From a virus, in the IMG/VR virus record IMGVR_UViG_3300042156_000080, positions 1 through 37,699 of that record: a stretch of DNA of 37,699 nt; one strand, written 5' to 3'. The position numbers and the translations under genes were made by a program. Of this stretch, positions 1 to 35,679 are shown in pieces. The notes below the pieces were generated by a model. That model saw only the letters and a program-made list of their open reading frames with translations. It ran no database searches and had not been told where the DNA came from. Every line of letters starts with the position of its first letter. Position 1 is the first letter of the stretch.

Positions 1-58
1 CTATAGCGCGGATCATGCCTGCCTTGATCCTCCGTTGCGTGCGCGGGTGGCCTATGTT
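1..58. repeat. Terminal direct repeat, left copy (assembly overlap of a circular genome)
   Basis: These 58 bases are identical to 37642-37699. A small leftward gene continues without interruption from one copy into unique sequence on the other side, so joining the two ends through a single copy restores an intact gene. The repeat is therefore most simply the overlap left when a circular or circularly permuted molecule was assembled. A true short terminal repeat is not excluded. Confidence 0.9.
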
Positions 59-76
59 GGTTCGATTGAAGTTCAT
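1..76 (-). CDS. 5' part of a 76-aa unknown phage protein that spans the contig junction
   Basis: This is the beginning of a leftward gene that continues at 37487-37699. The start codon at 76 has an AGGAGGT ribosome binding site a few bases upstream and overlaps the stop of the DUF4406 gene as ATGA. Joined through one copy of the 58-bp repeat, it encodes 76 residues beginning MNFNRTNIGHPRTQRRIKAG, rich in Arg and Lys at the N-terminus. No family is recognised. It belongs to the leftward early operon. Its uninterrupted reading is the main evidence that the genome is circular. Confidence 0.8.
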   Translation of the reverse strand, partial: MNFNRTNIGHPRTQRRIKAGMIRAI

Positions 77-459
77 GCTGTTACCTCCTGGCATACAGGG
101 CATTGGTCGTCGACAAGCTCCATGCCGTCGCAGCAATACCAGCAATTTGGATCTGCTTTGCGTGGCTGGTACTCAGCGCACGGCCGCGCCTTGATCCCGA
201 GGCTGACGGCCAGGCCGTTCTCGATCAGCGCCCCGCGGCTGTTCTGCCAGCCAGGCAACAGGGCCACGGCATCGCACTTCATCATTTGGGTGACGGCCTG
301 GCGCATGTAGGCCTGCCATGTTTCCTGTTCCGGGTTCTCGGCCGGGTTCTCGACGTGATAGCCGATGGCGCGCAGGCGGGCGGCTTCGGCGTGGAAGGCG
401 GGGTAGTTCGATTCGGGCAGGCCAGAGCATGGGCCCGCAATATATATACGCGGCTTCAT
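73..459 (-). CDS. DUF4406 protein (nucleoside deoxyribosyltransferase-like fold) with C-terminal zinc ribbon
   Basis: The 128-aa protein opens with IYIAGPCSG, followed by a conserved NPAE, a W..YMR segment, CDAVALLPGW and S.GA..E, the signature of the DUF4406 family. That family is related in fold to nucleoside 2-deoxyribosyltransferases. A nucleotide-metabolism role is therefore plausible but not demonstrated. The last 25 residues carry CWYC and CPVC, a likely zinc ribbon added to the domain. The start at 459 is chosen because it overlaps the HNH gene stop as ATGA and follows an AGAGG site; an in-frame ATG 10 codons further upstream lies inside the HNH gene. It is translationally coupled to its neighbours on both sides. 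Confidence 0.75.
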   Translation of the reverse strand: MKPRIYIAGPCSGLPESNYPAFHAEAARLRAIGYHVENPAENPEQETWQAYMRQAVTQMMKCDAVALLPGWQNSRGALIENGLAVSLGIKARPCAEYQPRKADPNCWYCCDGMELVDDQCPVCQEVTA

Positions 460-986
460 AAGCAAACCTCTGGGGTTAGGTGCGCCCAAAGGCGACCAGT
501 TTTTATTGCACTGACTAGTGGAATTGATATCCCAAAATCCATAGCTATTGAGGATTGAAGCTCGCCAAGCCAGGCGCGTATATATACTTCACGCGCCTTA
601 GCCTCGGTTAGGACTGCCATTCCGTGTTGTTCTCCACGGTGGGATACAACAACTCGCCGCCCCTTTCGATCCATGTCTCTTACGTTGTCCTCGTTTGTTC
701 CTAGGAACAGGTGCTCAGGGTTAACGCAACTCGGGTTGTCGCAGCTATGAAGCACACACATCCCATGAAAGCTTTCGTGCTGTGGTATTGGGCCATTAGC
801 TAACTCGAAAGAGTGCCTATGCGCGGACTTCATACTGTTTCGCGATCCATCCGGCCTGTATTTCCCGCCAATCGAAAACTTCCCGTAGCCCTTCCTGTCT
901 TTGCCAGCAAGCCATATCCAGCACTTCCCGGACTTGTCTACTTTTGACCAGAAGCGCTCAGTGGCTGTTATCTTTGGCTTGCTCAT
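456..986 (-). CDS. HNH endonuclease (free-standing homing-type)
   Basis: The 176-aa protein has a zinc-bound HNH core at about residues 55-105. Visible are the A-H-R-H-S-F segment, then C77, H80, C82 and C87 with N89, P90 and H92, followed by LFLGTNEDN. This arrangement is typical of HNH homing endonucleases and of HNH nucleases found near phage packaging or replication genes. The C-terminal 50 residues look like a helix-turn-helix DNA-binding tail. The gene is visibly poorer in GC than its neighbours, which suggests recent acquisition. Even so, it is joined to the upstream and downstream genes by ATGA overlaps. Its cleavage target cannot be deduced. It probably acts on DNA as a selfish element, or to favour this phage over rivals. 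Confidence 0.85.
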   Translation of the reverse strand: MSKPKITATERFWSKVDKSGKCWIWLAGKDRKGYGKFSIGGKYRPDGSRNSMKSAHRHSFELANGPIPQHESFHGMCVLHSCDNPSCVNPEHLFLGTNEDNVRDMDRKGRRVVVSHRGEQHGMAVLTEAKAREVYIRAWLGELQSSIAMDFGISIPLVSAIKTGRLWAHLTPEVCL

Positions 987-1276
987 TTGGCAGCCCCCGT
1001 AACAATCGGGCCATTCAGTGATTCAGCGGTAATTCCCAGGCGTTCAAGGTGCTGCTTGCGCAGCTGCTTGCGGCGATAGCTGACGATCACGCGCAGCTGA
1101 CAGATCAGCTCGTCGCGGCGCGGGTAGTCAATCAGACCCAGCTTGTAAGCCATGGTGATTTCGCCGGCAGCGCCTTCAAAGGTTGGCGCCTCGCTTGCTG
1201 CTACGGCTGTCAGGGTTTTGCTGATATGGCGTTCGGCCTCGTCCGCCAACTTGATTTTGTATTCACTGATTCCCAT
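983..1276 (-). CDS. Unknown phage protein, 97 aa
   Basis: The protein begins MGISEYKIKLADEAERHISK and is largely helical by composition, with a basic segment (YRRKQLRKQHLERLG) in the C-terminal half. The start at 1276 is preferred over longer in-frame options because AGGGAGA stands 6 bases before the ATG. It overlaps the upstream gene by 14 bases, and its TGA overlaps the HNH start. I do not recognise a family. The basic stretch could contact nucleic acid, but this is a guess. Confidence 0.65.
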   Translation of the reverse strand: MGISEYKIKLADEAERHISKTLTAVAASEAPTFEGAAGEITMAYKLGLIDYPRRDELICQLRVIVSYRRKQLRKQHLERLGITAESLNGPIVTGAAK

Positions 1277-1553
1277 CGCTATCTCCCTGCTCGTCATACC
1301 TGGCCCAAATGGCCGCTTCGATCTCGGCGCCGTGCCTGTCTGCGATTCGTTCCAGCCACTTAGGCAGCTGGCCGCACTCGTCAATCTTGCCTTTCTCGTT
1401 GTGGTGGGTGGCATACACCAGGCGCCATTCCACTTCGCGGGTGCCGCGGAAATCGTCGGCGCTGTCGCGGCACATCGGGTCTGGCGGATCGTTGATCAAG
1501 CGGATGATTTCAACGTCAAGCTTGTAGGCGTCCAGCTCTATGGTGATTTCCAT
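1263..1553 (-). CDS. Unknown phage protein, 96 aa
   Basis: The small acidic protein begins MEITIELDAYKLDVEIIRLI and contains a CRDSADDF segment and a WARYDEQGDSDGNQ tail. No domain is recognised. An alternative ATG at 1571 would add six residues and overlap the upstream gene; neither start has a strong ribosome binding site. It lies second in the leftward operon, between the exported protein and the 97-aa gene, and overlaps the latter. Confidence 0.55.
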   Translation of the reverse strand: MEITIELDAYKLDVEIIRLINDPPDPMCRDSADDFRGTREVEWRLVYATHHNEKGKIDECGQLPKWLERIADRHGAEIEAAIWARYDEQGDSDGNQ

Positions 1554-1560
1554 CGCCGGT

Positions 1561-1869
1561 CTACCGGGCATCGCCGTTGACGGTTTGCATGCAGCCGGTC
1601 AGAAGGCCGCCGCGCACCTCGTCAGGGCTCAGATGGGAATAGCGGTAGGTGATGGCGGCGGCCTGGTCGAAGGCTTCAAGCATCACGCCTTCCGAGCGCT
1701 CGGCGTTGATCTCTTTGATCGCAGCAAGGCGAACGCCAGCGTCCCGAAGATCGGCAACACCCTTGGCGTAATCGGCGAGGATGACGCAGCGTTCGGCGGC
1801 GGTGCCCATGGATGCCTGGGCGCTTGCCGAGGCGATGAGCAGAACAGAAAGCAGCAGTGCGGTTTTCAT
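1561..1869 (-). CDS. Small exported protein, first gene of the leftward operon
   Basis: The 102-aa product has a clear Sec signal peptide: MKT, a hydrophobic core ALLLSVLLIASASA, then a probable cleavage after AQA near residue 19. The mature part is about 80 residues with two cysteines (about 28 and 94) that could form a disulfide in the periplasm. No family is recognised. The start at 1869 has an AAGGGG site 8-9 bases upstream. It is the first gene behind the strong leftward promoter and so is probably made early. An early, exported phage protein is often a superinfection-exclusion factor, but nothing in the sequence proves that here. Confidence 0.7.
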   Translation of the reverse strand: MKTALLLSVLLIASASAQASMGTAAERCVILADYAKGVADLRDAGVRLAAIKEINAERSEGVMLEAFDQAAAITYRYSHLSPDEVRGGLLTGCMQTVNGDAR

Positions 1870-1916
1870 AGTGTTGCCCCTTGGTCGTGCCGACTGGGTG
1901 TCGGCGGGTGAGACGA

Positions 1917-1945
1917 ACTCTAGGCGACCAACAAAACCACGTCAA
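1917..1945 (-). promoter_or_regulatory. Leftward sigma70-type promoter
   Basis: Read leftward there is TTGACG (1945-1940), a 17-base spacer and TAGAGT (1922-1917). The -35 box matches consensus at five of six positions and the -10 box at four of six. It stands about 50 bases before the start of the exported-protein gene and is the best promoter candidate for the whole leftward operon. The -35 box is about 10 bases from the inverted repeat at 1957-2000, so repression by a bound regulator is plausible. Confidence 0.6.
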
Positions 1946-1956
1946 CTATTTTTTAT

Positions 1957-2000
1957 GGTTGATTACGCAAAGGCCATAAGCTAAGGTTGCGCAATCAACC
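1957..2000. promoter_or_regulatory. Candidate operator: 14-bp inverted repeat in the divergent control region
   Basis: GGTTGATTACGCAA at 1957-1970 and TTGCGCAATCAACC at 1987-2000 are inverted copies with one mismatch, separated by 16 bases. Each arm itself has TTG...CAA symmetry. The pair lies between the divergent leftward promoter and the Cro-like gene, where a phage repressor would be expected to bind. A weaker related half-site, GTCAAC, lies at 1941-1946 in the leftward -35 region. Confidence 0.55.
1959..1987 (+). promoter_or_regulatory. Possible rightward early promoter
   Basis: TTGATT at 1959-1964 and TAAGGT at 1982-1987 are separated by 17 bases. The -10 match is poor (three of six). 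The position, 30 bases before the Cro-like gene and inside the inverted repeat, fits a promoter that is blocked when the operator is occupied. Confidence 0.3.
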
Positions 2001-2017
2001 ACCAGCGAGGCACCCAA

Positions 2018-2221
2018 ATGAACATAGCTAAATCGATCCGCGTGGCGCAGGCCAAGCACGACATTAACCGCCAGGTGCTGGCCGAACGCACGGGCATCCA
2101 TGAGACCAATATCAGCAAGATGGTAAACGGCAAGCACGGCATAAGCTCGCTGCAGGTTGAACTGTTCGCGAAGGCTTTTGACATGAAGGTCAGCGAGTTC
2201 GTCGCCCTTGGGGAGGACTGA
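2018..2221 (+). CDS. Cro/XRE-type helix-turn-helix regulator
   Basis: The 67-aa protein is a single lambda-repressor-like helix-turn-helix domain: SIRVAQAKHDINRQVLAERTG, then the recognition helix region HETNISKMVNGK and GISSLQVELFAKAFD. The length suits Cro or a minimal C2-type repressor with no cleavable C-terminal domain. It is the first gene of the rightward operon, with GAGG about 8 bases before the ATG, and probably binds the inverted repeat just upstream. No partner CI-like repressor was found on the other strand, so it may be the only master regulator. Whether it represses one or both divergent promoters cannot be told. Confidence 0.8.
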   Translation: MNIAKSIRVAQAKHDINRQVLAERTGIHETNISKMVNGKHGISSLQVELFAKAFDMKVSEFVALGED

Positions 2222-2223
2222 GC

Positions 2224-2544
2224 ATGAACAGGGCGTCGGCAAAAAAAATAGCGGCAAATATTACCCGCGATCAGCTTTCGGAAATGATGGATCGCGCAAA
2301 GCGCGGGGTTCGCAACTGGGAATCGGTAAGCAGTGTCAATCCGTACCTTACAAAGGGCGCGGCATGGAACATTTTTTACCCAGTGCTCAAAAGTGGTAGG
2401 CCTATGTCGATGCCAGCCATGGTCAATATGGTATGGGAGTTTGGCGATTACCTTGCCGAAGATCTTAAGCCCAATAAATCCGAGCGCCCCAAAGCCGCTG
2501 TTACCCCACACCACGAAGAGCCTATCTTTGGGGGGCGGATGTAA
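2224..2544 (+). CDS. Unknown early protein, 106 aa
   Basis: The gene starts two bases after the stop of the regulator gene, with GGGGAGGA as ribosome binding site, and ends in a TAATG overlap with the replication initiator. The product begins MNRASAKKIAANITRDQLSE and contains NWESVSSVNPYLTKGAAW. No family is recognised. Its position between a regulator and the replication initiator is where lambdoid phages keep CII-type or helper proteins, but no helix-turn-helix is evident. GC content is lower than in the late genes. Confidence 0.65.
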   Translation: MNRASAKKIAANITRDQLSEMMDRAKRGVRNWESVSSVNPYLTKGAAWNIFYPVLKSGRPMSMPAMVNMVWEFGDYLAEDLKPNKSERPKAAVTPHHEEPIFGGRM

Positions 2545-3287
2545 TGTCGAGCTGGGTAAAGCTATCAAGAAAGCTTGCCACCAGCGCCATAGCGTCTAAG
2601 CCTGAATACCTGGCGGTGTGGGTGCATTTGCTGCTTTCTGCCTCATACAAGGAAGGGGAAATACTCGTAGGGCGCCAGGTTGTCAGGTTAAATCCCGGTC
2701 AATTGGTGTTCGGGCGGCATAAATTTTCTGAAAAAACGGGGGTATCCGAGAGTATTGTTCGTGCGGCTTTAAAAGTGCTCGAAAGCCTCCAGCAGATAAC
2801 CATCAAATCTCACTCGAAATTTTCAGTAATAACAATAACTAAATGGAGCCACTACCAGATAGAAACGCCAGCAGATAACCAGCAAGTGACCAGCAAGCGA
2901 CCAGCAGATGACCACAATAAAGAAATACAAGAAATACAAGAACAAGATAAACAACTCTTGTCGTCTGGAGACGACGAGGGAAAGAAGCGAATCAGGAAAA
3001 AAGACGAGACGCCTTACGAGCTTTTCATTGCGACGTACCAGGCGCGGTGCGCTGGCAGATTGAAACCAGCCGAGAAGCTGAACGACAAACGAAAGGCGGC
3101 TATTCGACGAGCCTGGAATTTCAAGGCGCGCGATCAACTCCCGTTTCGGCAAGACGGTTTTCTTGAGCGCTATCTTGACAAGCTTATGGCTGACCCATTC
3201 AAGACGGGACAAAACCCTACCGGGTGGCGGGCCGATATTGAATACGCATTCCGCGAAAAAACCATGACCGACGTGATAGGGGTTTGA
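2544..3287 (+). CDS. Replication initiator (lambda O / DnaD-like)
   Basis: The 247-aa protein begins MSSWVKLSRKLATSAIASKPEYLAVW and continues with LLLSASYKEGEILVGRQVVRLNPGQLVFGRHKFSEKTGVSES, a winged-helix domain shared by phage O-like and primosomal initiators (residues about 1-110). A hydrophilic linker (about 112-155) follows. The C-terminal part is basic (KLNDKRKAAIRRAW) and ends in a helical segment before the stop. The linker DNA holds the iterons described separately, exactly as the lambda origin lies inside O. The helicase gene follows after one base, so this protein probably binds the origin and loads the phage DnaB. Confidence 0.8.
   Translation: MSSWVKLSRKLATSAIASKPEYLAVWVHLLLSASYKEGEILVGRQVVRLNPGQLVFGRHKFSEKTGVSESIVRAALKVLESLQQITIKSHSKFSVITITKWSHYQIETPADNQQVTSKRPADDHNKEIQEIQEQDKQLLSSGDDEGKKRIRKKDETPYELFIATYQARCAGRLKPAEKLNDKRKAAIRRAWNFKARDQLPFRQDGFLERYLDKLMADPFKTGQNPTGWRADIEYAFREKTMTDVIGV
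2868..2975 (+). other. Probable replication origin: four 11-bp iterons, AT-rich region and dyad
   Basis: CCAGCAGATAA (2868), CCAGCAAGTGA (2879), CCAGCAAGCGA (2890) and CCAGCAGATGA (2901) stand head to tail with no spacer. A decayed fifth unit beginning CCAC follows at 2912. An isolated exact copy of the first unit lies at 2789-2799. The period of 11 is not a multiple of three, so the repeats are conserved as DNA, not as peptide. An AT-rich stretch with AAATACAAG twice (about 2919-2957) and a dyad GTCGTCT/AGACGAC (2960-2975) follow. Iterons, an AT-rich element and a dyad inside the initiator gene is the lambda ori design. Confidence 0.7.
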
Positions 3288-3288
3288 C

Positions 3289-4653
3289 GTGAGTACAAGA
3301 GACCCGTACAGCCAGGAAGCCGAACAAGGCCTGCTTGGCGCAATGCTCCTAAAGCCCGAACTGATCGACGTGCTGAGCGCCGACCTGAAGGCCGAAGATT
3401 TTTTCTTTTCGTACAACCGCGATGTGTTCAAGGCGATCATGAAGCTGCAGGCCAAAGGTGCCGGCGTTGATTTCCTGACGGTCGCCGAGCGCATGGGCAC
3501 TCTGGACAACGGCGACAGCGCCTTGGCCTATGTCGCCGAGCTTCACCGCAACACGCCGAGCGCAGCAAACGCCAAGACCTATGCCGGGATTGTCTTGGAG
3601 CGCAGCATTGACCGTTCGCTGATCGCTGCTGCCGAAGCCGTCCACGAACTGGCAACGACCGACGCCAGCGCCGAAGACAAGATCGCCAGGGCTCATGCCG
3701 AGATACTGGCGATCAACGCGGAGTCGGCAGCGCCGGAGACGATCACCGCCAACGATGCCTTGCGCGTTCACATCGAAGAGCTGGAGCGCCGCGAAGAACT
3801 CGGCGGCGCCATGGATGGTCTGGCCACCGGTATCAAGGCGCTCGACGCCAAGCTGATGGGCCTCAAGCCCGAACAGTTCATCGTCATAGCCGGGCGCCCA
3901 AAGATGGGCAAAACGACCCTGGTGATGAACATCGCCGACAACGTGGCGGTAAAGCAGGGCAAGCAGGTTTTGGTCTTCAGTCTGGAAATGAGCCACCGCC
4001 AGCTGATGGACAAGTCTTTGTCGTCGCTTGGCGGTATTCCTCTGGACAACCTGAAGAACGGGACGGTGTTCAACACGCACCCCAAAGAGCTGGTGGACAC
4101 TTCGTCGTTGCTCGCAAATTCCGGGCTGGTGCTTTACGACCGCAAGGGCGCGACGATCAACCGGATTAGATCAGTAGCCCGCCGGCACAAGATGCGCCAC
4201 GGCCTTGACCTGCTGGTTGTCGACCATATCGGCCTGGTCGATGTCGACGACTTCCGCGCCAACCCCGTGCAGCGGGTCAGCGAGGTGACGCGACAGCTCA
4301 AGCTGTTGGCGAAAGAGCTGGATGTCCCGCTGATCGCCCTGTCGCAACTGAACCGCCAGCTTGAGCAGCGCCCGAACAAGCGCCCCATCCCATCCGATCT
4401 GCGCGACAGCGGCACCATCGAGCAAGACGCGGACATGATTATTTTCGTGTACCGGGACGAGGTTTACAGCCCGGACACCGAACAGCGCGGGGTCGCCGAA
4501 ATCATCGTCGGCGTTGCGCGGGAGATCGAGCCCTGCACTGTGCTGGCTCGCTACCAGGGCAAATACAGCCTGTTCAGCGACCTGGCAGACGACTACGAAC
4601 CACCGGCCCCAAGATCGGGCAGGACATACGCCAGCAGCTCTCTGCTGGACTAG
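3289..4653 (+). CDS. dnaB: Replicative DNA helicase, DnaB family
   Basis: The 454-aa protein has the DnaB N-terminal helical domain (residues about 5-105, with YSQEAEQGLLGAML) and a RecA-like ATPase. Walker A is GRPKMGKT at 202-209, the catalytic Glu region is SLEMS at 231-235, Walker B is LLVVDHIGL at 308-316 and the sensor segment is ALSQLNR. It would form the hexameric 5'-3' helicase that unwinds DNA at the fork. The length is that of bacterial DnaB. The start is GTG, one base after the initiator stop, with AGGGG upstream. Carrying its own helicase makes the phage independent of host DnaB loading. Confidence 0.95.
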   Translation: MSTRDPYSQEAEQGLLGAMLLKPELIDVLSADLKAEDFFFSYNRDVFKAIMKLQAKGAGVDFLTVAERMGTLDNGDSALAYVAELHRNTPSAANAKTYAGIVLERSIDRSLIAAAEAVHELATTDASAEDKIARAHAEILAINAESAAPETITANDALRVHIEELERREELGGAMDGLATGIKALDAKLMGLKPEQFIVIAGRPKMGKTTLVMNIADNVAVKQGKQVLVFSLEMSHRQLMDKSLSSLGGIPLDNLKNGTVFNTHPKELVDTSSLLANSGLVLYDRKGATINRIRSVARRHKMRHGLDLLVVDHIGLVDVDDFRANPVQRVSEVTRQLKLLAKELDVPLIALSQLNRQLEQRPNKRPIPSDLRDSGTIEQDADMIIFVYRDEVYSPDTEQRGVAEIIVGVAREIEPCTVLARYQGKYSLFSDLADDYEPPAPRSGRTYASSSLLD

Positions 4654-4661
4654 GAGGCGTC

Positions 4662-4793
4662 ATGGCCGAGCGAGTCGATGTGATCATGTTGCGCGTTGTC
4701 GAGACCATGGCCAGGAACTGCAAGACGGCTGATGGCCGGGAAAGACTCAAAGCAAAGGCTGCCGAATTGCGCAGCAAACTAAACCAGGGGTGA
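4662..4793 (+). CDS. Small unknown protein, 43 aa
   Basis: An ATG at 4662 is preceded by AGGAGG at ideal spacing and opens a 43-codon frame beginning MAERVDVIMLRVVETMARNC, ending in a Lys/Ala-rich helical tail. It fills the space between dnaB and the next gene and ends next to that gene's start. The very good ribosome binding site is the main support. No family is recognised. Confidence 0.6.
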   Translation: MAERVDVIMLRVVETMARNCKTADGRERLKAKAAELRSKLNQG

Positions 4794-4798
4794 CCAGC

Positions 4799-5065
4799 AT
4801 GCAAAAAACAAAACCGCAGGAAAACGACCAGGCAGCAGAAAACCGTCTGCTCAAAACCCATTGTGCCGTACTCGCCGAGCTGGCAGACGTGCGCGAACGC
4901 AAGTGCCAGCAGCTACAGCGGGCAGCCAGCGCGGCAGGGGAAGAGCTTCGCCGGTTGCAGGAGAAGAGCCGCAGCGACCGCTCGTCCTTGGTATGGGTCT
5001 GCGCGACCGTTGGCCTTGGCGCCGGGTTTATCGGCTGGCAGGTTGCTCAGCGGGTGCTGTCGTGA
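4799..5065 (+). CDS. Membrane-anchored coiled-coil protein, about 89 aa
   Basis: The product starts MQKTKPQENDQAAENRLLK. It has a Glu/Arg/Gln-rich helical segment that should form a coiled coil (residues about 10-60) and ends in one hydrophobic helix (LVWVCATVGLGAGFIGWQVA) that would anchor it in the inner membrane. AGGGGTGA lies 5 bases before the ATG at 4799; a GTG at 4790 would add three residues. Its stop overlaps the RusA start. The function is unknown. Confidence 0.6.
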   Translation: MQKTKPQENDQAAENRLLKTHCAVLAELADVRERKCQQLQRAASAAGEELRRLQEKSRSDRSSLVWVCATVGLGAGFIGWQVAQRVLS

Positions 5066-5502
5066 GCGTGCTTGTGTGCGTGCCAGGCGAGGCCGTTGGC
5101 AAGGGCAGGCCGCGGGTTGCGGTTCGAGGCGGGCGCCCATCGCTGTACACGCCAGCGCCGACCCTGGCCTATGAATCCGCCGTAAAGGCCGAGGCCGTAG
5201 CCTCGATGCAGGGCCGCGCCGTGTTCGCTGGCCCGGTAGAACTCAAGCTGCAGATTTTCATGGGCATACCGGCGAGTTTTCCAAAGAAACGCCGGGAGGC
5301 TGCCAGCCTTGGACACATCGTCCCGACCAAGAAACCGGACATGGACAACGTGGTTAAGATCGTCTGCGATGCGTTCAACGGCGCGGTGTGGGTCGACGAC
5401 ACCCAGGTTGTCGATTTGCATGTCACGCGGCGCTATGCCGAAGAGCCGTGCATTGTGGCAATTGTCACTGAGCTGGATTTCTCGGCCAAGACTGACGATT
5501 AA
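5062..5502 (+). CDS. rusA: RusA-like Holliday junction resolvase
   Basis: The 146-aa protein has the RusA pattern: an N-terminal strand followed by GKGRPRVAV, YTPAPTLAYESAV, the segment KKPDMDNVVKIVCDAFNG with its two conserved aspartates, then VWVDDTQVVDLHVTRRY. RusA dimers cut four-way junctions, and the two Asp in PDMDN together with those in DDTQV form the metal site. Phages use it to resolve recombination intermediates before packaging. The GTG at 5062 overlaps the previous stop as GTGA. It acts with the RecT/YqaJ pair encoded in the leftward operon. Confidence 0.88.
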   Translation: MSVLVCVPGEAVGKGRPRVAVRGGRPSLYTPAPTLAYESAVKAEAVASMQGRAVFAGPVELKLQIFMGIPASFPKKRREAASLGHIVPTKKPDMDNVVKIVCDAFNGAVWVDDTQVVDLHVTRRYAEEPCIVAIVTELDFSAKTDD

Positions 5503-5638
5503 AACAAGCGCCAAGGCGCCCAGCGCGACGCAGGTGAGGCGAAAGCAGGCAAAGGCAAGCCACCATAGCTAGTAGGTGGTGGACGAGCCTTAAAAACGAT
5601 TACAGAGATTCATTGACCACAAACGAATAGGTGACCAG

Positions 5639-5764
5639 ATGGAAAACAAAGAAGTGGAGCGCTGGACTCGCGCGGCAGCAGTATTGCCGGTGAATGCGAA
5701 TATTGAATCAAGCCTGCTCAAGCGCATCGACGCCAAGCTCGCCGAGCTGCGCAATATCGGCTAG
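5639..5764 (+). CDS. Small unknown protein, 41 aa
   Basis: An ATG at 5639 with AGGTGA five bases upstream opens a frame beginning MENKEVERWTRAAAVLPVNA and ending KRIDAKLAELRNIG. It stands alone between the RusA gene and the terminator at 5853. The 136 bases before it (5503-5638) contain no gene but can fold (AAGGC 5552-5556 with GCCTT 5587-5591, and CCACC with GGTGG inside). No family is recognised. Confidence 0.45.
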   Translation: MENKEVERWTRAAAVLPVNANIESSLLKRIDAKLAELRNIG

Positions 5765-5805
5765 CATTGTCTCGCCCCACTCGGCTGGTCACCTGCGGGC
5801 CGACT

Positions 5806-5873
5806 TGCCGCCGTAAGCGGCACACGAACAACCAACGCCGCGCCGACAAGTGCCCGCACAAGCGGGTTTTTTT
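5806..5873 (+). terminator. Hairpin followed by intrinsic terminator between early and late genes
   Basis: A first hairpin, TGCCGC-CGTAA-GCGGCA, lies at 5806-5822. A second, CCCGC-ACAA-GCGGG, at 5853-5866 is followed directly by seven T (5867-5873), a standard rho-independent terminator. It separates the replication genes from the gpZ-like and packaging genes, so late expression probably needs antitermination or a separate promoter. Confidence 0.65.
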
Positions 5874-5920
5874 ATGCCCGTGCGTTTACGATCAGAGCCA
5901 ACGCACCAGAGGCCGCGGCC

Positions 5921-6673
5921 ATGATCGAAGTCAAAGTAACCTCAAACATCGAGCAGCTCAGCAGGGCACTGCGCGAGGTCGGAGAAAAGCAGCTGCCAAA
6001 GACCATGGCCAGGGCGGCGACCCGAACAGCCTGGGTTGTTCGAGAACGGATAATCGAGGCCATAACAAAAGATTTTGACCGGCCCACGCCGCTGACACTC
6101 AAGTCGCTCTATGTGAAAGCCGCAAAGCCTGGTGGCGCCCCTGCGCGCGTTTGGTTCAAAGATGCGTTCACAAGCGGAATCCCCGCCGACAAGTACCTGC
6201 AGCCGCAAGTGCAGGGCGGGCCACGTGGCCACAAGCGTTTCGAAAAAGCCCTGATAGCCCGCGGCCTGATGAGTTCGAGCGAATACGCCATACCAACCAA
6301 GGACGTGCTCAACGCCTTCGGCAACGTTCCGGGCGGATTGTCTATGCGGATACTGTCAGGCCTTGGCGCTGCCGAAACGGTTGCAGGCGTGACCGCCAAC
6401 GCATCCAGTAGCAGGCGATCACGCAAGAAGGGCAACAAGGCCCGGTTCTTCATAGCCAAGATCAAAAACACCAGGGCCATATGGGAGCAGAAGACAACAG
6501 CCCTAGGCCGAGGCATTCGCCCCGTGTTCGTGTTTGTGACCAAGGCGCCGAGCTACAGCAGCAAGCTCGATTTCAGGGGCATAGCAGAGCGCACCATCGA
6601 ACGGGAATACCTGGCGCAGTTCTCGGCGGCGATTGATGAAGCAATTGTGTGGGCTATGGAGAAAAAGACTTGA
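5921..6673 (+). CDS. Minor tail / tail completion protein (gpZ-like)
   Basis: The 250-aa protein begins MIEVKVTSNIEQLSRALREV. A helical N-terminal region with many Arg (RAATRTAWVVRERI) is followed by PLTLKSLYVKAAKP and a basic middle (SSRRSRKKGNKARFF). This organisation resembles lambda gpZ and related tail-completion proteins, which act at the head-proximal end of the tail. The match is by pattern only. The gene stands between the early terminator and the packaging genes, away from the rest of the tail cluster. AGAGG lies about 8 bases before the ATG. Confidence 0.5.
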   Translation: MIEVKVTSNIEQLSRALREVGEKQLPKTMARAATRTAWVVRERIIEAITKDFDRPTPLTLKSLYVKAAKPGGAPARVWFKDAFTSGIPADKYLQPQVQGGPRGHKRFEKALIARGLMSSSEYAIPTKDVLNAFGNVPGGLSMRILSGLGAAETVAGVTANASSSRRSRKKGNKARFFIAKIKNTRAIWEQKTTALGRGIRPVFVFVTKAPSYSSKLDFRGIAERTIEREYLAQFSAAIDEAIVWAMEKKT

Positions 6674-6870
6674 CAGGGGCGGCGGGGGCACCCCACCCCC
6701 ACCCCTTAGGTTCTTCCGCGGGGGGAGGCCCCTTGCGGGTTATTCGCGCCGTGTTGCTCGCGCTCTGCCACTATTTTGTAACTGTTACAACTACTCACCA
6801 GGCCGGAAGCTGATAGGCTTTGCTAGTAGCGACCAAAAGCCCAGTGGGCGCGGAACTGGACAAGTTACAA
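6674..6870 (+). other. Non-coding packaging region, candidate cos site
   Basis: No gene is seen in these 197 bases. TTGCGGGTTATTCGC at 6733-6747 resembles the sequence to the right of the lambda nick site, where CGCGGGTTTTCGC follows the 12-base cohesive end, and it is preceded by a GC-rich GGGGAGGCCCC (6722-6732). A perfect dyad TTGTAAC-T-GTTACAA lies at 6776-6790, and another GTTACAA lies at 6864-6870. The location just upstream of the small terminase gene, together with a lambda-type large subunit, fits cosN plus terminase-binding sites. The exact nick positions cannot be read from sequence alone. Confidence 0.4.
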
Positions 6871-7533
6871 ATGGCCCTGACCAACCTGTACGAGTATTCA
6901 AAAATACGGAAATGTTCGCGGCAGGCGGTGCAAAAGGCCGTCGACAGCGGGCGGCTTAAGGCGTGCATCGAGTACGGCGCCAACGGCAAGCCGTACATCA
7001 ACGATGTGGCTTTGGCGCATGAGGAGTGGGACAAGAACACAGCGAGCAAACACCGGCCGGCGAGTGTTGCCGAGTTCACGCCGCCGGCAGCGGCCACCGC
7101 TGGTAAGCCAAAGGCGCAAAAGTCGACGCCAGCAAAGGCAAAGCCAGCAGCAAAACCCAAGACGCCAGCCGTCGCGCAGATCCCGCCAGCATTCGAAGAC
7201 CCCGAAGAGTCAGCCATTGATCCGCAAAGCGGTCTGCCTCGCCTTCACGTCAGCCGCCAGCGCCAGGCCCACTTCGACGCCATTGCAGCCCAGGCCAGAG
7301 CCGAAGCGCTTGCCGGTTCTCACGTTCCACGCGAAGAGGTGGCCAAGGCCGCGTTCGGCGTGGCCCGCCAGGTGCGTGACTGCCTGCTGCTGATCGAGGA
7401 ACGCCTACCCGACCAGCTGGCCTCGATCACAGATCCTGCCCGGATACGGGAAATGCTTCACCGCGAGTTCCGCGCAGCACTGAACAAGCTGTCGACGGAG
7501 GTGGCAGCGGATGACCAATCTAGCGCAGCCTGA
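6871..7533 (+). CDS. terS: Terminase small subunit (Nu1-like)
   Basis: The 220-aa product begins with a helix-turn-helix resembling lambda Nu1: NLYEYSKIRKCSRQAVQKAV, then DSGRLKACIEYG (residues 4-36). A Pro/Ala/Lys-rich linker follows (about 60-110). The helical C-terminal part (about 130-215) probably contacts the large subunit. It recognises phage DNA at the packaging site. No strong ribosome binding site precedes the ATG; GTG at 6844 or TTG at 6820 are alternatives. It overlaps the large subunit gene by 23 bases. Confidence 0.75.
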   Translation: MALTNLYEYSKIRKCSRQAVQKAVDSGRLKACIEYGANGKPYINDVALAHEEWDKNTASKHRPASVAEFTPPAAATAGKPKAQKSTPAKAKPAAKPKTPAVAQIPPAFEDPEESAIDPQSGLPRLHVSRQRQAHFDAIAAQARAEALAGSHVPREEVAKAAFGVARQVRDCLLLIEERLPDQLASITDPARIREMLHREFRAALNKLSTEVAADDQSSAA

Positions 7534-9445
7534 TTTTAAGCGGCCGCTATCAGCCGAGCAGGAATACCGCCAGGCGTTCGCCGCCGGCTTGCTGCCCGAC
7601 GAGGTTTTGACCGTCAGCCAGTGGGCGGACGCAGAACGAAAGCTCGACTCCCGCGGCTCGCCAGAGCCTGGTGACTGGCGCACCGACCGCACGCCGTATC
7701 TGCGCGAGATCATGGATAACCTGTCTGTGACCTCTGGCGTAGAGGAATCGGCCGTGATGAAGGCGGCGCAGCTCGGGTTTACCGAGGCTGGCAATAACCT
7801 CGTTGGCTACGTCATCCACCACGCCCCCGGCCCCGGCCTGTTCCTTGAGCCGTCGCAGGATCTGGCAAACAGGAACGTGCGCCAGAAGATCAACCCGATG
7901 ATCGAATCGACGCCGGCCCTGGCCGAGCGGGTGCCAAAGGCGCGGTCGGCAACCGGCGGCAACACGCTGGAGGAAAAAGAATTTCCCGGCGGAATCTGGA
8001 TGTTCAAGTGGGCCAGCTCTACCGCTGGCCTGCGCTCGGCCACCATCCGCTTTCTGGTGATGGACGAGATCGACGAGTACGCCGTGGAGATCGGCCAGCA
8101 GGGCGACCCGGAAATGCTGGCCCGTGCTCGAACAAACGCCTACGGCCGGCGCAAGAAGATTTACATCCCGTCGACGCCGACCGTCGAAGGGCACAGCCGC
8201 ATAGCCGACCTTTTCGAAGACAGCGACCAGCGCCGCTTCTACATGCCATGCCCGTGCTGTGGCCAGAGCATCCGATTCGAGTTCAAGCAGCTGAAGTGGG
8301 TGGCCGGCGATCCGTCGACCGCGCATTACGAATGCCAGCGCTGCTTTGGAAAGATCCACGAATGGCAGAAAACGGAAATGCTGGAGCGCGGCGAGTGGGT
8401 CGCCGAGAACCCGGAGAACACCCGGCGCCGCGGCTACCACATCAACGGGCTCTACAGTCCTGTGGGCTGGTTGTCCTGGGCGGAGATCGCCGAACTGTGG
8501 GAGGACGCCCAAGGCAACCCCGGCAAGCTCAAGGTTTTCGTGAACACGGTGCTCGCCGAAACTTGGAAAGAGCGCGGCGAGGCACCGGATTGGAAGCGGC
8601 TCTATGAGCGGCGCGAGGATTACCAACTGGGCGTTGTCCCGCGCGGCGGCCTGATCATCACCGCGGCGGCGGACGTTCAGCGCGGCCCGGACGGTGCCGG
8701 CTGGATTGAAGTCGTAACCTATGCCTGGGGCCGTAACCTTGAGCGCTGGGTTATTGATCACCGGCAATTCCACGGCGACACCAGCGACATAAGCATTCCG
8801 GGCGGGCCGTGGGAGCAGTTGCAGAAGCTGCGCGAAAGCTACTACCCGCACGAACACTCAGGCGTTGCGATGCCCATAACCATGATGGCCGTCGACTCAG
8901 GCGACCAGACCATGACCGTCTACGATTGGTGCGCCAGCCAGCCGCACGGCACCGTTATGGCGGTCAAAGGGCAGCAGACGGGCAGCCTGTTGATCAGCAA
9001 CGCCAAGCCGGTTCAGATCAAACAGAACGGAAAGCGCAAGGCCAGGGCAACAAAGCTTTGGCTTGTGTCGCTGAACATCGCAAAGGCTGAGCTGTTCGCC
9101 CAGCTGCGTTATGTGCGAGACCCTGAAAAGCCTTTAGGCCGCGGTTATATCCACTTCCCGGAGCTGGATCAGGAGTTTTTCGAGCAGCTGACGGGCGAAC
9201 AAATGCTAGTCAAGCGGGTGAAGGGTCGGCAGGTCAGTTCCTGGGAGCCTACCCGGTCGCGCGTGGAAGTCCTAGACTGCACGGTATATGCTCGGGCCGC
9301 GGCCTACCTGCTCGGGATTGACGGCTGGTCAGAGGAAAACTGGTTAGCGCTGGAGGAATCACTGGGGATTGTCGGCGATGACGGCAATCAAACGCCCGCC
9401 GACAAGCCGCAGAGGCGAAAGTCAAACTACTGGAACCGCAGATAA
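7511..9445 (+). CDS. terL: Terminase large subunit, lambda gpA family
   Basis: The 644-aa packaging motor and nuclease has its ATPase near the N-terminus: a variant Walker A KAAQLGFT at 84-91, in which the lysine leads the loop as in lambda gpA, and Walker B LVMDEID at 182-188. CPCC...CQRC at about 253-278 forms a zinc ribbon. The C-terminal nuclease shows AAADVQ, then MAVDSGDQT and RGYIHF. It docks on the portal, translocates DNA and cuts at the packaging site. The start has GGAGG at good spacing inside the small subunit gene. Confidence 0.93.
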   Translation: MTNLAQPDFKRPLSAEQEYRQAFAAGLLPDEVLTVSQWADAERKLDSRGSPEPGDWRTDRTPYLREIMDNLSVTSGVEESAVMKAAQLGFTEAGNNLVGYVIHHAPGPGLFLEPSQDLANRNVRQKINPMIESTPALAERVPKARSATGGNTLEEKEFPGGIWMFKWASSTAGLRSATIRFLVMDEIDEYAVEIGQQGDPEMLARARTNAYGRRKKIYIPSTPTVEGHSRIADLFEDSDQRRFYMPCPCCGQSIRFEFKQLKWVAGDPSTAHYECQRCFGKIHEWQKTEMLERGEWVAENPENTRRRGYHINGLYSPVGWLSWAEIAELWEDAQGNPGKLKVFVNTVLAETWKERGEAPDWKRLYERREDYQLGVVPRGGLIITAAADVQRGPDGAGWIEVVTYAWGRNLERWVIDHRQFHGDTSDISIPGGPWEQLQKLRESYYPHEHSGVAMPITMMAVDSGDQTMTVYDWCASQPHGTVMAVKGQQTGSLLISNAKPVQIKQNGKRKARATKLWLVSLNIAKAELFAQLRYVRDPEKPLGRGYIHFPELDQEFFEQLTGEQMLVKRVKGRQVSSWEPTRSRVEVLDCTVYARAAAYLLGIDGWSEENWLALEESLGIVGDDGNQTPADKPQRRKSNYWNRR

Positions 9446-9738
9446 TGGCCGAATACACACCGATGACGATGGAAAATTACCTAGAGTTGCGCGCCGCGAT
9501 CTTCGAGGGCGCGCAGTCTGTCAGCTACTCACACCCAGGCGGCAATAAATCCGTCACCTACCGAAGCCTTGACGACATGCTGCGCCTGCTGAAACTGCTG
9601 GCCCAAGAGCTTGGCATCAAGAGCACCGCGCCGCGCCGCACCCTGGCCAGCTTTTCCAAGGGCTACAACCCGCGGGCGGCAGATAGCGTGGCAGAGGGCG
9701 GCGAGTGCTTCAGCACCGATGGGCGGTGCTGCCCATGA
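9445..9738 (+). CDS. Head-tail joining protein, gpW-like
   Basis: The 97-aa product lies between terminase and portal, the place of gpW in lambda. It has the typical short helix-strand-helix content: YLELRAAIFEGAQSVSYS, GGNKSVTYRSLDDMLRLLKLLAQEL. gpW-type proteins seal filled heads under the portal. A tail of about 30 residues (from RRTLASFSKGY) is rich in Cys and Gly near the end. The start overlaps the terminase stop as TAATG, and its end overlaps the portal start. Confidence 0.75.
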   Translation: MAEYTPMTMENYLELRAAIFEGAQSVSYSHPGGNKSVTYRSLDDMLRLLKLLAQELGIKSTAPRRTLASFSKGYNPRAADSVAEGGECFSTDGRCCP

Positions 9739-11243
9739 ACCTTTTGGATTCGATCGTATCCGCGTTCAACCCGCGCGCCGGCCTGCAGCGAGCACTAGCC
9801 CGCAAGGCGCTGCGCAGCTTCGAGGCCGCCAGCCGCAGCCGGCGAACGGATGGATGGCGCACCAGCAGCAGCGATGCCAACCGCGAGATAGGTCAGGGCC
9901 AGCAGCTGCTACGCGACCGAGCGCGAGCCATGCGCCGAGACAACCCCTACGCCGAGCGCGGAATATCGGCGATTGCCTCGAACGTGGTTGGCTATGGGAT
10001 CGTCCCTGATCCGCAGGGCCGCACCAGGCAGAAGCGGCACGCGCTGAAGATGTGGAAGGCCTGGGCAGAAACCCCCGCATGCGATGCGGCCGGCATGTCC
10101 GGCTTCTACGGCCTGCAAAACCTAGCGATGCAGAGCGTTGCCGAGAGCGGCGAGGTGTTGCTGCGCCGCGTGTGGACACCAGGCGCCAACGCCCTGAACT
10201 TCCAAGTGCAGATGCTGGAAGCCGACTATCTCGACGACTCCAAAAATATGGCGCTTGGCGATGGCGGATATATCGAACTTGGCATCGAGTACAACAGCGC
10301 CGGGGTGAGGACGCACTTCTGGCTTTTCCCGCAGCACCCCGGCGGAACCACAAAATCCCTGCGCTCTGGCGTGGTCAGTGAGCGCGTGCCGGCTGAGGAC
10401 GTGGCCCACATCTTCCTGCGCAAGCGCCCAGGCCAGACCCGCGGCTATTCGTGGATGGCGCCGGTTATCTTGCGGATGCGCAACTTTGACGAAATGGAAG
10501 ACGCGGTAATTGAACAGGCCAAGATTGCCGCCTGTTTCGCTGCGATCATCCAAGAGGATGAAGGCGGCAGCGGCGGCGCCAGCCCGACAAAGCCAAGCCT
10601 GATCGAGCGCATGGAACCCGGCATGATTGAACGCATCGGCGCTGGGGAGTCTGTGCAGTTCGGAACCCCGCCAACCTTCAACGGGTACGAGGCATACAGC
10701 CGCCAGTCGCTGCGCGCTACCGCTGTCGGCCTTGGTCTGCCCTACGAGGTGTTGGCCGGTGACCTGTCCGGCGTGAACTTCACCAGCGGCCGCATGGGCT
10801 GGCTGGAGTTCGGCCGCAATATAGACGTGTGGCGCTGGCACATGCTGATTCCGCAGATGTGCGCGCGCGTTTGGGATTGGTTCAACGAGGCCGCCAGCGT
10901 ATCGCCGGGCGGGTGGGAAACCGCGATCCCGTGCGGTTGGGTGGCCCCGCGCCGCGACCTGATCGACCCGACCAAAGAGCTAGACGCGTTGTCGAGGGAA
11001 ATGCGGATAGGCGCCCTGAGCTTCAGCGGCATGCTCAAAGAGCGCGGCATAAACGACACCGACGCGCACATTTCGCAGATGGTCGAGGACAACGCCGCAA
11101 TCGACAAAGCCGGCCTGGTGCTGGACAGCGACCCGCGCAAAGTGGCGTCCCAAGGGATGATGCAGCCAGCCACCGCGCCGGCCGCAGATATTGCGCCTGG
11201 GGCTGATGCTGATACACTCGCCGCATCAAGAGGAAGCGCCTAA
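9735..11243 (+). CDS. Portal protein, lambda gpB family
   Basis: The 502-aa protein starts MNLLDSIVSAFNPRAGLQRA and carries the family pattern: ARAMRRDNPYAERGISAIASN, FQVQMLEADYLD, RVPAEDVAHIF, RPGQTRGYSW and GLPYEVLAGDLSGVNFTSGRMG. Portals of this type form the dodecameric ring through which DNA enters and leaves the capsid, and nucleate head assembly. The start at 9735 overlaps the gpW-like stop as ATGA. The C-terminus is Ala-rich, and the stop overlaps the next ATG. Confidence 0.92.
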   Translation: MNLLDSIVSAFNPRAGLQRALARKALRSFEAASRSRRTDGWRTSSSDANREIGQGQQLLRDRARAMRRDNPYAERGISAIASNVVGYGIVPDPQGRTRQKRHALKMWKAWAETPACDAAGMSGFYGLQNLAMQSVAESGEVLLRRVWTPGANALNFQVQMLEADYLDDSKNMALGDGGYIELGIEYNSAGVRTHFWLFPQHPGGTTKSLRSGVVSERVPAEDVAHIFLRKRPGQTRGYSWMAPVILRMRNFDEMEDAVIEQAKIAACFAAIIQEDEGGSGGASPTKPSLIERMEPGMIERIGAGESVQFGTPPTFNGYEAYSRQSLRATAVGLGLPYEVLAGDLSGVNFTSGRMGWLEFGRNIDVWRWHMLIPQMCARVWDWFNEAASVSPGGWETAIPCGWVAPRRDLIDPTKELDALSREMRIGALSFSGMLKERGINDTDAHISQMVEDNAAIDKAGLVLDSDPRKVASQGMMQPATAPAADIAPGADADTLAASRGSA

Positions 11244-13351
11244 TGCCAAAGCGCATAAAAAGCAAGATCAATCTCCCGCAGCGCGCAACCCGCGCCGCGT
11301 TCGTCCCGGCATCGATTAACGAAGAAGACCGCACGATAGAAATCGTCTGGACTACCGGCGCCGAAGGTGAGCGCTGCGAGTGGGACGGCGAGGTCTATCT
11401 GGAGTCCCTGCGCGTCGACGATGCCAGCGTTCGAATGGGGCGCCTTAATTCTGGCGCCCCAGTTCTTGACGCCCACCAATCCTGGGAACTTCGTAACCAA
11501 ATAGGGGTTGTTGAGAAAGCCTGGCTGGTCGACGGAGTTGGCCATGCCCTGGTTCGCTTCAGCGCCCGCGAAGAGGTCGAGCCATTCTTTCAGGACGTGA
11601 AAGCCGGGATCATTCGGAATATCTCTGTCGGCTATGTTGTCTATCATTACGAGCGAGTGGCCGGCGAAGACGGTTCCCCGGATCGGATGATCGCTGTCGA
11701 CTGGGAGCCATTAGAACTAAGTTTCGTGCCAGTGCCTTTTGACGCTGGCGCGCAAGTCCGCGGCGGCGTGACGCCCCGCACGTTTACCGCAGATGTCACT
11801 AATCGAACCAAGGGGAACCCCAAAATGCCACGCGAACTCAAAGTAATCCGCGCCGCTCTGGTGCAAGCACGCGACACGCTGGCGAAAGCCCGCGAGGTCG
11901 AAGACGAAACCAAAATCGCCGAAGCGCAAACCATCCTCGCAGCCGTAGAGGATGAGCTGGAGCAGGCGCTGGATGCTCTGGACGAAGGCTTGGGCGATGG
12001 CTCGGAAGAAGCCGCACCGGATGCCGAAACCGTCACCAAATCTGCCGACGAAGACCCGGAGCAGCGCGGTATCAAATCCGAGCGCCAGCGCCAAGTGAGC
12101 ATTCGCGCACTCGGCCAGCGGTTCAAGGCCGACGCCGTTACCGTCGAAGCGTTGATCGAACGCGGCTTGACTGTCGACCAAGCCAAGCTTTCCATCCTCG
12201 CCACCTTGGCCGAGCGCCAGGCAGGCATTAACACCCATGCAGGTGCCAACGTGCCACAGAAGAACATCGAGAAAGCCCGCAGCCATATAGAGGCTGCAAT
12301 CCTGCACCGCGCCGCGCCCGGTAAGCACAAGCTGCCGGAAGAGGCCCGCGGGTTCCGTGGTCTCACCCTGATGGATATGGCGCGCGAGTGCATCGAAATG
12401 GCCGGCGGCAACGTCCGCGGCATGGATCGCCACCAGATCGCCCGTCTGTCCCTGAACATCGGTGGCCACTCTGCACAGCGCGCCGCCGGCATGCACAGCA
12501 CCAGCGATTTCCCGCTGATCCTGGGGAACACAATCAACCGTTCGCTCCGTGCCGCCTACGATGAAGTGGCGCAAACCTGGCTGCCGCTGGGCCGCCAGGC
12601 CAACTTTGCCGACTTCCGCGCGCGCATGTCGGTTGCCTTGGGCGAAGCGTCCCGCCTGGAGATCGTCAAGGAGGGCGGCGAATACAAATATGGCACCCTC
12701 CCGGAAGATGGCTCCAGCATCAAGGCCGAGAAGTGGGGCAAGATCATTGCCTTGACCTGGGAGGCGATCATCAACGACGACCTCAACGCCTTCGACAAGA
12801 TCCCGACCGCGCTGGCAAATTCTGCGCGCCAGACCGAATCGAACGTTATTTGGGATCTGTTCATCAAGGATGTGAAGTACTCGGACGGCGTGAACATCTT
12901 CAACAGCGCCCACGGGAACCTGGCCGGCACTGCTGCTGCGATCACCGTCGAATCCCTGGCAGCTGCTCGCGCCTCGATGCGCAAGCAGAAAGGCCTCGAC
13001 AAGACGACCTTTATCAACGTCACGCCGAAGTACTTGGTTGTTGGCCCGGACAAGGAGCTTGAGGCGTACCAGTTCACCAGCCCCAACTATTTCCCGGTCA
13101 CCGCAGGAACCATCAACCCGACGCCTAACACTCAGCTGACCGTGATTGTAGAGCCGCGCATCACTGGCAATCAGTGGTTCTTGGTGGGCGATGGCGAGAC
13201 CTTCGAATATGGCTACCTCGACGGCGAAGGCGGCTTGATGACCGACACCCGCGAAGGCTTCGAAGTCGACGGCCTGGAAGTCAAAGCCCGCCTGGTGTTC
13301 GGGGCTGGCTGGGTCGACTACCGCGCGGCCTACAAGAACGCAGGCGCCTAA
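11243..13351 (+). CDS. Prohead protease fused to scaffold and Mu gpT-like major capsid protein
   Basis: The 702-aa ORF holds three parts. Residues 1-175 are a serine protease of the HK97 prohead type, with His78 in VLDAHQS and Ser128 in RNISVGY. Residues about 195-330 are a charged helical region typical of scaffolds. From about 365 to the end is a Mu-like major head protein (RAAYDEVAQTWLPLGRQANF, ALTWEAIINDDLNAFDKIP, NAHG-type loop, C-terminal RLVFGAGWVDYRAAYKN). The protease would remove the scaffold during maturation. An in-frame ATG with its own ribosome binding site lies at codon 195. Equal amounts of protease and capsid would be wasteful, so internal initiation is likely. Confidence 0.9.
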   Translation: MPKRIKSKINLPQRATRAAFVPASINEEDRTIEIVWTTGAEGERCEWDGEVYLESLRVDDASVRMGRLNSGAPVLDAHQSWELRNQIGVVEKAWLVDGVGHALVRFSAREEVEPFFQDVKAGIIRNISVGYVVYHYERVAGEDGSPDRMIAVDWEPLELSFVPVPFDAGAQVRGGVTPRTFTADVTNRTKGNPKMPRELKVIRAALVQARDTLAKAREVEDETKIAEAQTILAAVEDELEQALDALDEGLGDGSEEAAPDAETVTKSADEDPEQRGIKSERQRQVSIRALGQRFKADAVTVEALIERGLTVDQAKLSILATLAERQAGINTHAGANVPQKNIEKARSHIEAAILHRAAPGKHKLPEEARGFRGLTLMDMARECIEMAGGNVRGMDRHQIARLSLNIGGHSAQRAAGMHSTSDFPLILGNTINRSLRAAYDEVAQTWLPLGRQANFADFRARMSVALGEASRLEIVKEGGEYKYGTLPEDGSSIKAEKWGKIIALTWEAIINDDLNAFDKIPTALANSARQTESNVIWDLFIKDVKYSDGVNIFNSAHGNLAGTAAAITVESLAAARASMRKQKGLDKTTFINVTPKYLVVGPDKELEAYQFTSPNYFPVTAGTINPTPNTQLTVIVEPRITGNQWFLVGDGETFEYGYLDGEGGLMTDTREGFEVDGLEVKARLVFGAGWVDYRAAYKNAGA
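11810..11827 (+). promoter_or_regulatory. Internal ribosome binding site and in-frame start for scaffold-capsid
   Basis: AAGGGG at 11810-11815 stands 9 bases before an ATG at 11825, which is in frame with the protease-capsid ORF (codon 195). The site lies exactly between the protease domain and the helical scaffold region. Initiation here would make a 508-aa scaffold-capsid protein beginning MPRELKVIRAALVQARDTLA, in excess over the full fusion. Confidence 0.6.
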
Positions 13352-34802: not shown

Positions 34803-35666
34803 CTACTCCATTGTGGGGATTTCTTCGGTCGATGCTGGCGTGATTTCGCCGGTGCCAGTGTTGACGGTTTCAGCTGCGCCCATTTCTTTTGCTGGCGTGC
34901 TGGTGTTGGTGGGCTGGTCTTGCTGGTCTAGGTCAATAACGAAACCATTTTCGATCAGAGCGCCGCGGCCTTCCTCGGCGGCGTGGCTGATCTGGATAGC
35001 GTTGGACATCTCAACCGAGGCCGGCATGTACTTGAGAACCTGCAGCAGCGGGACTTTGCGCGCGTACATTTCCCAGTCGCGGAAGCTGTAGTGTTTCTTG
35101 CCAACCTTGTTGTACTTGTCGCGGTGCTTCTCAATCTTCGCTACAGACCAGAGTTCAATGATCGGCATTGAGGCGTCTTTGACCCAGCCAACCGCGTAGG
35201 CGTGGGTGATGTCTTCCGGGGCATCGAGGTCGGTTTCGTTGTGGATAACCAGATCTCGGCGGGCGCCGTCCGTGTAGGTGTATTTCTGGTCTTTGAAGAT
35301 GACCCCGGTGAAGACTGTTCCTCGACCGCTGCGCGATACCAGATCCACCAGGCCTTTCCAGCCAGGCACAAAGGTGCAGGTCGTGCCATAGGGGATCAAG
35401 TAGCCGGCGCCGTTTACGCCAGGCTCAAGGCCGAGCTGGCCGGCCGTCATGATCGATGCGGCAATGCTCTGGTGTGAGCAGCGCTGAAGTGCGGGGCTGG
35501 TGCTGAAGGCAGTCAGGGCAAGGCGTGACATGCGGTCGGCGGTCAAGTGCTTTGGCAGGGCAAGGCCAAGTTGTGGCTTGAGCTTGTCCATGAAGCTGGA
35601 GAACTGCTTGACCGGCGTAAGGTTCTGCGAGCCGGTAGCGGCTTCGCGTAGCTGGTTAGCTGACAT
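34803..35666 (-). CDS. recT: RecT-type single-strand annealing protein
   Basis: The 287-aa protein carries the RecT core: RLALTAFSTSPALQRCSHQS, IMTAGQLGLEPGVNGAGYLI, PYGTTCTFVPGWKGLVDLVS and the SFRDWEMYARKVPLLQVLKY helix (residues about 45-230). A disordered acidic tail follows. It anneals complementary single strands made by the YqaJ exonuclease upstream in the same operon, the phage equivalent of lambda Red. The pair is probably used for DNA repair and concatemer formation. Confidence 0.93.
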   Translation of the reverse strand: MSANQLREAATGSQNLTPVKQFSSFMDKLKPQLGLALPKHLTADRMSRLALTAFSTSPALQRCSHQSIAASIMTAGQLGLEPGVNGAGYLIPYGTTCTFVPGWKGLVDLVSRSGRGTVFTGVIFKDQKYTYTDGARRDLVIHNETDLDAPEDITHAYAVGWVKDASMPIIELWSVAKIEKHRDKYNKVGKKHYSFRDWEMYARKVPLLQVLKYMPASVEMSNAIQISHAAEEGRGALIENGFVIDLDQQDQPTNTSTPAKEMGAAETVNTGTGEITPASTEEIPTME

Positions 35667-35679
35667 AACGGTGAATCTC

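Follow-up and report, generated by a model that had tools for sequence, protein, structure and literature searches.

A putative replication origin with 11-bp iterons inside the initiator gene of a phage record from IMG/VR

The initiator gene and its embedded repeats

The stretch of DNA analysed here, referred to as the window, is the IMG/VR virus record IMGVR_UViG_3300042156_000080 (37,699 bp), and the element under study is an array of short direct repeats, a candidate replication origin, located inside the gene of a phage replication initiator. This gene (2544–3287, plus strand) encodes a protein of 247 amino acids, in which profile matches and an AlphaFold model delineate a winged-helix N-terminal domain, a disordered linker and a helical C-terminal domain. 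The protein matches both PHROG 2514 (“DnaD-like helicase loader,” E-value 2.2e-31) and PHROG 345 (“replication initiation O-like,” E-value 1.4e-24), and its gene is directly followed by that of a DnaB-type replicative helicase (3289–4653, plus strand; DnaB_C, E-value 8e-80; DnaB N, E-value 2e-25). Profile match and adjoining helicase gene together place it among the phage initiators of PHROG 2514 and PHROG 345.

In the AlphaFold model, the winged-helix domain (residues 9–106; 2568–2861, plus strand), the presumed reader of the iterons, mostly reaches a predicted local distance difference test score (pLDDT) above 90, and the C-terminal domain (residues 158–247; 3015–3284, plus strand), which presumably contacts the helicase, is a confidently predicted helical domain. 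The pLDDT drops below 50 at residues 111–127 and 132–147; the iterons and the A-rich box next to them encode residues ~109–134, i.e., the start of the linker predicted to be disordered.

The array itself (2868–2911, plus strand) consists of four 11-bp units, namely CCAGCAGATAA (2868–2878), CCAGCAAGTGA (2879–2889), CCAGCAAGCGA (2890–2900) and CCAGCAGATGA (2901–2911). An earlier note on this DNA had given them the consensus CCAGCARRTRA, from which the third unit deviates by one base, and had placed a further exact copy 79 bp upstream, which is indeed present as a solitary repetition of unit 1 at 2789–2799 (plus strand). With a period score of 26/33 at 2868, compared to 19/33 at the next best place, the array represents the strongest 11-bp period of the 37.7-kb window, and no second array was found in it. 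For the motif CCAGCARNNRA, 1.76 occurrences are expected in the window and 11 are present, five of them at this locus.

Of all 45-mers in the window, the most AT-rich starts at 2914, downstream of the array, and the second most AT-rich at 2794, upstream of it. On the downstream side, a closing half-unit CCACA leads into an A-rich box whose AAGAA repeats follow a 9-bp pitch (2912–2945, plus strand). This box is the presumed unwinding element; it contains the unit AAATACAAG twice (2923–2931 and 2932–2940) and, at 2913, the top 9-bp period of the window. Upstream, an AT-rich segment reaches from the solitary copy toward the array (2794–2846, plus strand), with 74% AT at 2813–2846 and raised conservation of codons 92–100. 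The AT-rich stretch, the paired A-rich units and a dyad behind the array, as described in the earlier note, are thus all present, but the dyad (CTTGTCGTCT/AGACGACGAG; 2957–2978, arms at 2957–2966 and 2969–2978) is marginal and at most a tentative part of the origin. DnaA boxes were not detected at 2301–3400 when up to one mismatch was allowed. A comparison of the AAGAA repeats with DnaA-trio elements was dropped due to the poor fit of letters and spacing.

Selection on the DNA and constancy of the pitch

Shuffling of synonymous codons with the peptide kept did not reproduce the periodicity of the array in any of 5000 trials (score 26; shuffled mean 17.4, standard deviation 2.0). Consistently, when 12 aligned close relatives were compared at pairs of codons for identical amino acids, codon identity amounted to 0.48 for codons 1–78, 0.79 for codons 79–88 covering the upstream unit, 0.89 for codons 109–123 covering the array and 0.99 for codons 125–134 covering the A-rich box. 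The array moreover uses CCA and GCA, minor codons that make up 24 and 19%, respectively, of their codon families in the phage. Array and upstream copy are also kept in 13 viral contigs found via protein similarity, with some single units decayed.

For the wider family, relatives were gathered via protein similarity alone, because choosing them by their repeats had to be avoided, and were reduced to 74 genes at 85% identity. The best linker period within the range of 7–16 bp was 11 bp in 60 of the 74 genes, and synonymous shuffling was beaten at p ≤ 0.01 in 58, which do not count as independent events since each gene was tested separately although the genes share ancestry. In 47 genes of this set, a box closing the array (CAC…AAGAA) was detected; it is found in each of the three codon phases (23, 3 and 21 genes), and whole arrays likewise shift their reading frame among relatives, with all three frames represented. 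The check proposed in the earlier note, whether the 11-bp period is kept while the peptide drifts, therefore came out strongly positive. Its argument that 11 is not a codon multiple, so that the repeats must be DNA sites, is no proof by itself; the proof lies in the synonymous shuffles together with the frame changes, and judged from these sequence comparisons the repeats are under selection as DNA.

Family members occur in phages or prophages of Pseudomonas, Escherichia, Shigella, Yersinia, Cronobacter, Deltaproteobacteria and Anaerolineae, and further ones in those of Staphylococcus, Bacillus, Lactobacillus, Enterococcus and Clostridia. Across this range the repeat core varies (CCAGCA, GACAACA, TGTCAATCA, TGACAACCC, GTCCAACG) and the pitch is constant, with approximately [CA]CARCANNNNA as the common in-register form. 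One member (MZ361826) is named vB_LmoS_C996 like Listeria phages and has Listeria-phage search neighbors; its stated host, Hydrogenophilus thermoluteolus, may be wrong. Relatives of the N-terminal domain are also encoded on 11 plasmid records, including NZ_CP137560 (Segatella), LR134256 (Klebsiella) and NZ_AP022466 (Enterobacter).

A scan of genome contigs returned no locus with a single protein as query and 28 loci with an alignment as query. DNA-pattern scans of IMG/VR yielded at least 295 array loci (at least 119 and at least 176 further ones), and among the matches listed the array lies within a gene of the family at 294 of 295 (118/119 and 176/176). At the one exception (L061; IMGVR_UViG_2881717282_000002, 1352–1950), the winged-helix domain forms a separate gene of 117 amino acids (family profile E-value 4e-35) which stops just past the conserved YQ motif. 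Its array (periodicity 32/33) and AAGAA box are located outside this gene, 146 bp downstream. As a small open frame of 69 amino acids crosses that array, it is not claimed to be non-coding.

The C-terminal domain (window 2958–3284) is exchanged just beyond the A-rich box in three relatives (L007, L012 and L013), and in two of them (L007 and L013) the next gene encodes a P-like helicase loader (PHROG 109) instead of DnaB. From sequence, these swaps fit a contact of the C-terminal domain with the helicase or its loader.

Interpretation as an origin and competing explanations

Direct repeats selected as DNA within an initiator gene and an adjoining AT-rich element, here the most AT-rich 45-mer of the window, are what an initiator-embedded iteron origin is expected to display. 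We propose, with a probability of roughly 0.87, that the segment at ~2789–2945 is the replication origin of this phage, situated inside the gene of its own initiator, and that replication would start there. The array is very probably an initiator-bound origin, with binding by the initiator as a prediction. What this analysis establishes is that the repeats are selected as DNA, that their pitch is fixed, that C-terminal domains are exchanged and, as a structural prediction, that the linker is flexible; iteron binding, strand opening and helicase recruitment are proposed by analogy with lambda O, SPP1 and the pSK41 Rep protein. In this model, the winged-helix domain would bind each 11-bp unit, and since 11 bp correspond to about one helical turn, the protomers could be aligned in a head-to-tail row along one face of the DNA. 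The adjoining A-rich AAGAA repeats may open first, helped by the bound initiator, and the C-terminal domain could then recruit the DnaB helicase, the product of the next gene. That the repeat core, the reading frame and the C-terminal partner domain vary around a constant pitch suggests one protomer per helical turn.

Alternatively, the repeats could reflect a repetitive linker peptide or codon bias and be functionless as DNA, which would be in line with their position in coding sequence and with the low complexity of the linker. This explanation is hardly credible, since it is contradicted by the absence of any matching shuffle among the 5000, by shuffle results at p ≤ 0.01 in 58 of the 74 relatives, by arrays in three codon phases, by the array of L061 outside the initiator gene and by the use of minor codons. 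Centromeres typically consist of short-pitch repeat arrays, and the array might alternatively be an operator or partition site, at which the winged-helix protein autoregulates its gene or segregates a plasmid prophage, comparable to TubR or ParR on short direct repeats. A fold search of the initiator model gave non-significant matches that include the centromere binders TubR and AspA. We nevertheless consider this quite unlikely: the array lies within the initiator gene rather than upstream of it, genes for a helicase or helicase loader come next, the C-terminal swaps track the partner gene in two cases, and no partition gene was seen, though no systematic search for one was made.

Similarly improbable, and if anything slightly more so, is that the array binds the initiator as a loading or copy-control site and that strand opening and replication start take place elsewhere. 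The role of the array as start site is indeed an inference, and in SPP1 the initiator gp38 binds two origins ~13 kb apart (PMC6316719). Against such an arrangement, the window contains no second array, and its most AT-rich DNA directly adjoins the one described here.

Several observations weigh against an origin at ~2789–2945. Neither binding nor start-site data were found for this phage or any phage of the family, and a clear 11-bp period is missing in Listeria phage A118, Vibrio phage 1.189.B and Pseudoalteromonas phage SL25. Foldseek comparison of the initiator model against PDB gave no significant match. Covariation between residue 75 of the recognition helix and base 1 of the iteron is an association based on just four changes on the tree and, for this reason, is not separable from descent.

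Two parts of the pattern are less robust than the array. The upstream iteron copy was not seen at the corresponding place in the Staphylococcus or HK620 relatives, and the dyad at 2957–2978 exceeds shuffled sequences in folding by a modest margin (z −2.2) and is weak in the relatives tested. GC skew, which the earlier note had suggested as a check, showed no clear turning point.

Inspection of the A118 linker by eye revealed ACAACG units apparently ~12 bp apart. Regarding the protein fold, the non-significant PDB matches are winged-helix proteins, among them also 4pt7, titled only “Structure of initiator,” and a profile search of PDB sequences returned weak winged-helix matches only. A fold search of viral models retrieved replisome organizers and DnaD-domain proteins. 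The window protein scores 16.8 bits against Phage_rep_org_N (PF09681), below the curated cut-off of 23.3; 15 of 47 family members match this profile at E ≤ 0.01, and a distant link is therefore possible.

Relation to known origins and genomic context

The closest described counterparts are the O proteins of the HK022/HK620/Sf6 type from E. coli and Shigella phages, which share the family by profile, the 11-bp units and their position in the gene; HK620 also carries CCAGCAGATTA. In the records of HK620 and Sf6, a rep_origin feature covers the 11-bp repeats, with the wording “putative; repeat region reminiscent of the phage lambda origin; similar to phage HK620” in the case of Sf6. This type of origin has hence already been noticed locally, as a prediction, like the one presented here. 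The units of HK620 and Sf6 are arranged in two blocks, whereas the phage of the window has a single row of four.

The likeness to phage lambda drawn in the earlier note holds for the layout: in both cases, the middle part of the initiator gene contains iterons and an AT-rich tract. The N-terminal domain of lambda O binds the iterons, and O also binds single-stranded DNA of the AT-rich tract (PMC7466680). Common descent is, however, not supported, as lambda O shows no detectable homology (hhalign probability 0.2%) and lambda O, P22 gp18 and 80alpha gp20 display neither a family-profile match nor an 11-bp period. The unit is in fact much shorter than that of lambda, as previously noted, with 11-bp units at 11-bp spacing vs. 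18-bp iterons at a spacing of 20–24 bp. A further parallel is the pSK41 Rep protein (RepA_N), whose winged-helix N-terminal domain binds four boxes inside rep, whose origin-coded linker is dispensable and whose separate C-terminal domain contacts the replication machinery (PMC5703833). The initiator described here resembles it in the winged-helix N-terminal domain, intragenic boxes, origin-coded linker and separate C-terminal domain; a RepA_N domain was not matched by Pfam in the window protein or in 47 family members. In SPP1, the initiator G38P binds direct repeats by an AT-rich element within its own gene at oriL (PMC6316719), a likeness that concerns the layout.

The origin proposed here would accordingly be of a known kind, belonging to a large group of origins that lie within initiator genes and have one-turn iterons, in a variant that is apparently undescribed. 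For the 11-bp class as a whole, no account was found in the open literature searched, which did not include the principal review on replication modules of phages. It is an evenly poised proposal that winged-helix initiator, 11-bp iterons and AAGAA unwinding box define a very widespread, unnamed class of phage origins, reaching from Pseudomonas phages and coliphages to those of staphylococci, bacilli, lactobacilli, clostridia and deltaproteobacteria. Where the initiators of phages and prophages are annotated merely as DnaD-like or hypothetical, a signature of three or four NCARCA units at 11-bp spacing followed by CACANACAAGAA would in many cases indicate the probable position of the origin. 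Moreover, the proposed geometry of one initiator per DNA turn is simple and testable, and the locus clearly illustrates how binding sites in DNA and a protein sequence can evolve within the same bases. This overlap may also explain the exchange of initiator halves at the boundary of the origin.

With respect to the phage itself, a comparison of window positions 1–12000 with phages by megablast gave no match. Among named phages, the nearest in the initiator gene are those of Pseudomonas syringae called Orimi01 and Orisa01-03, with 76% identical DNA across 400 bp, and a Pseudomonas-type host is therefore likely. Genes for a RecT annealing protein and a YqaJ exonuclease are located near the right end of the window (34803–36576, minus strand); in the record, which is linear, the replication genes lie elsewhere.
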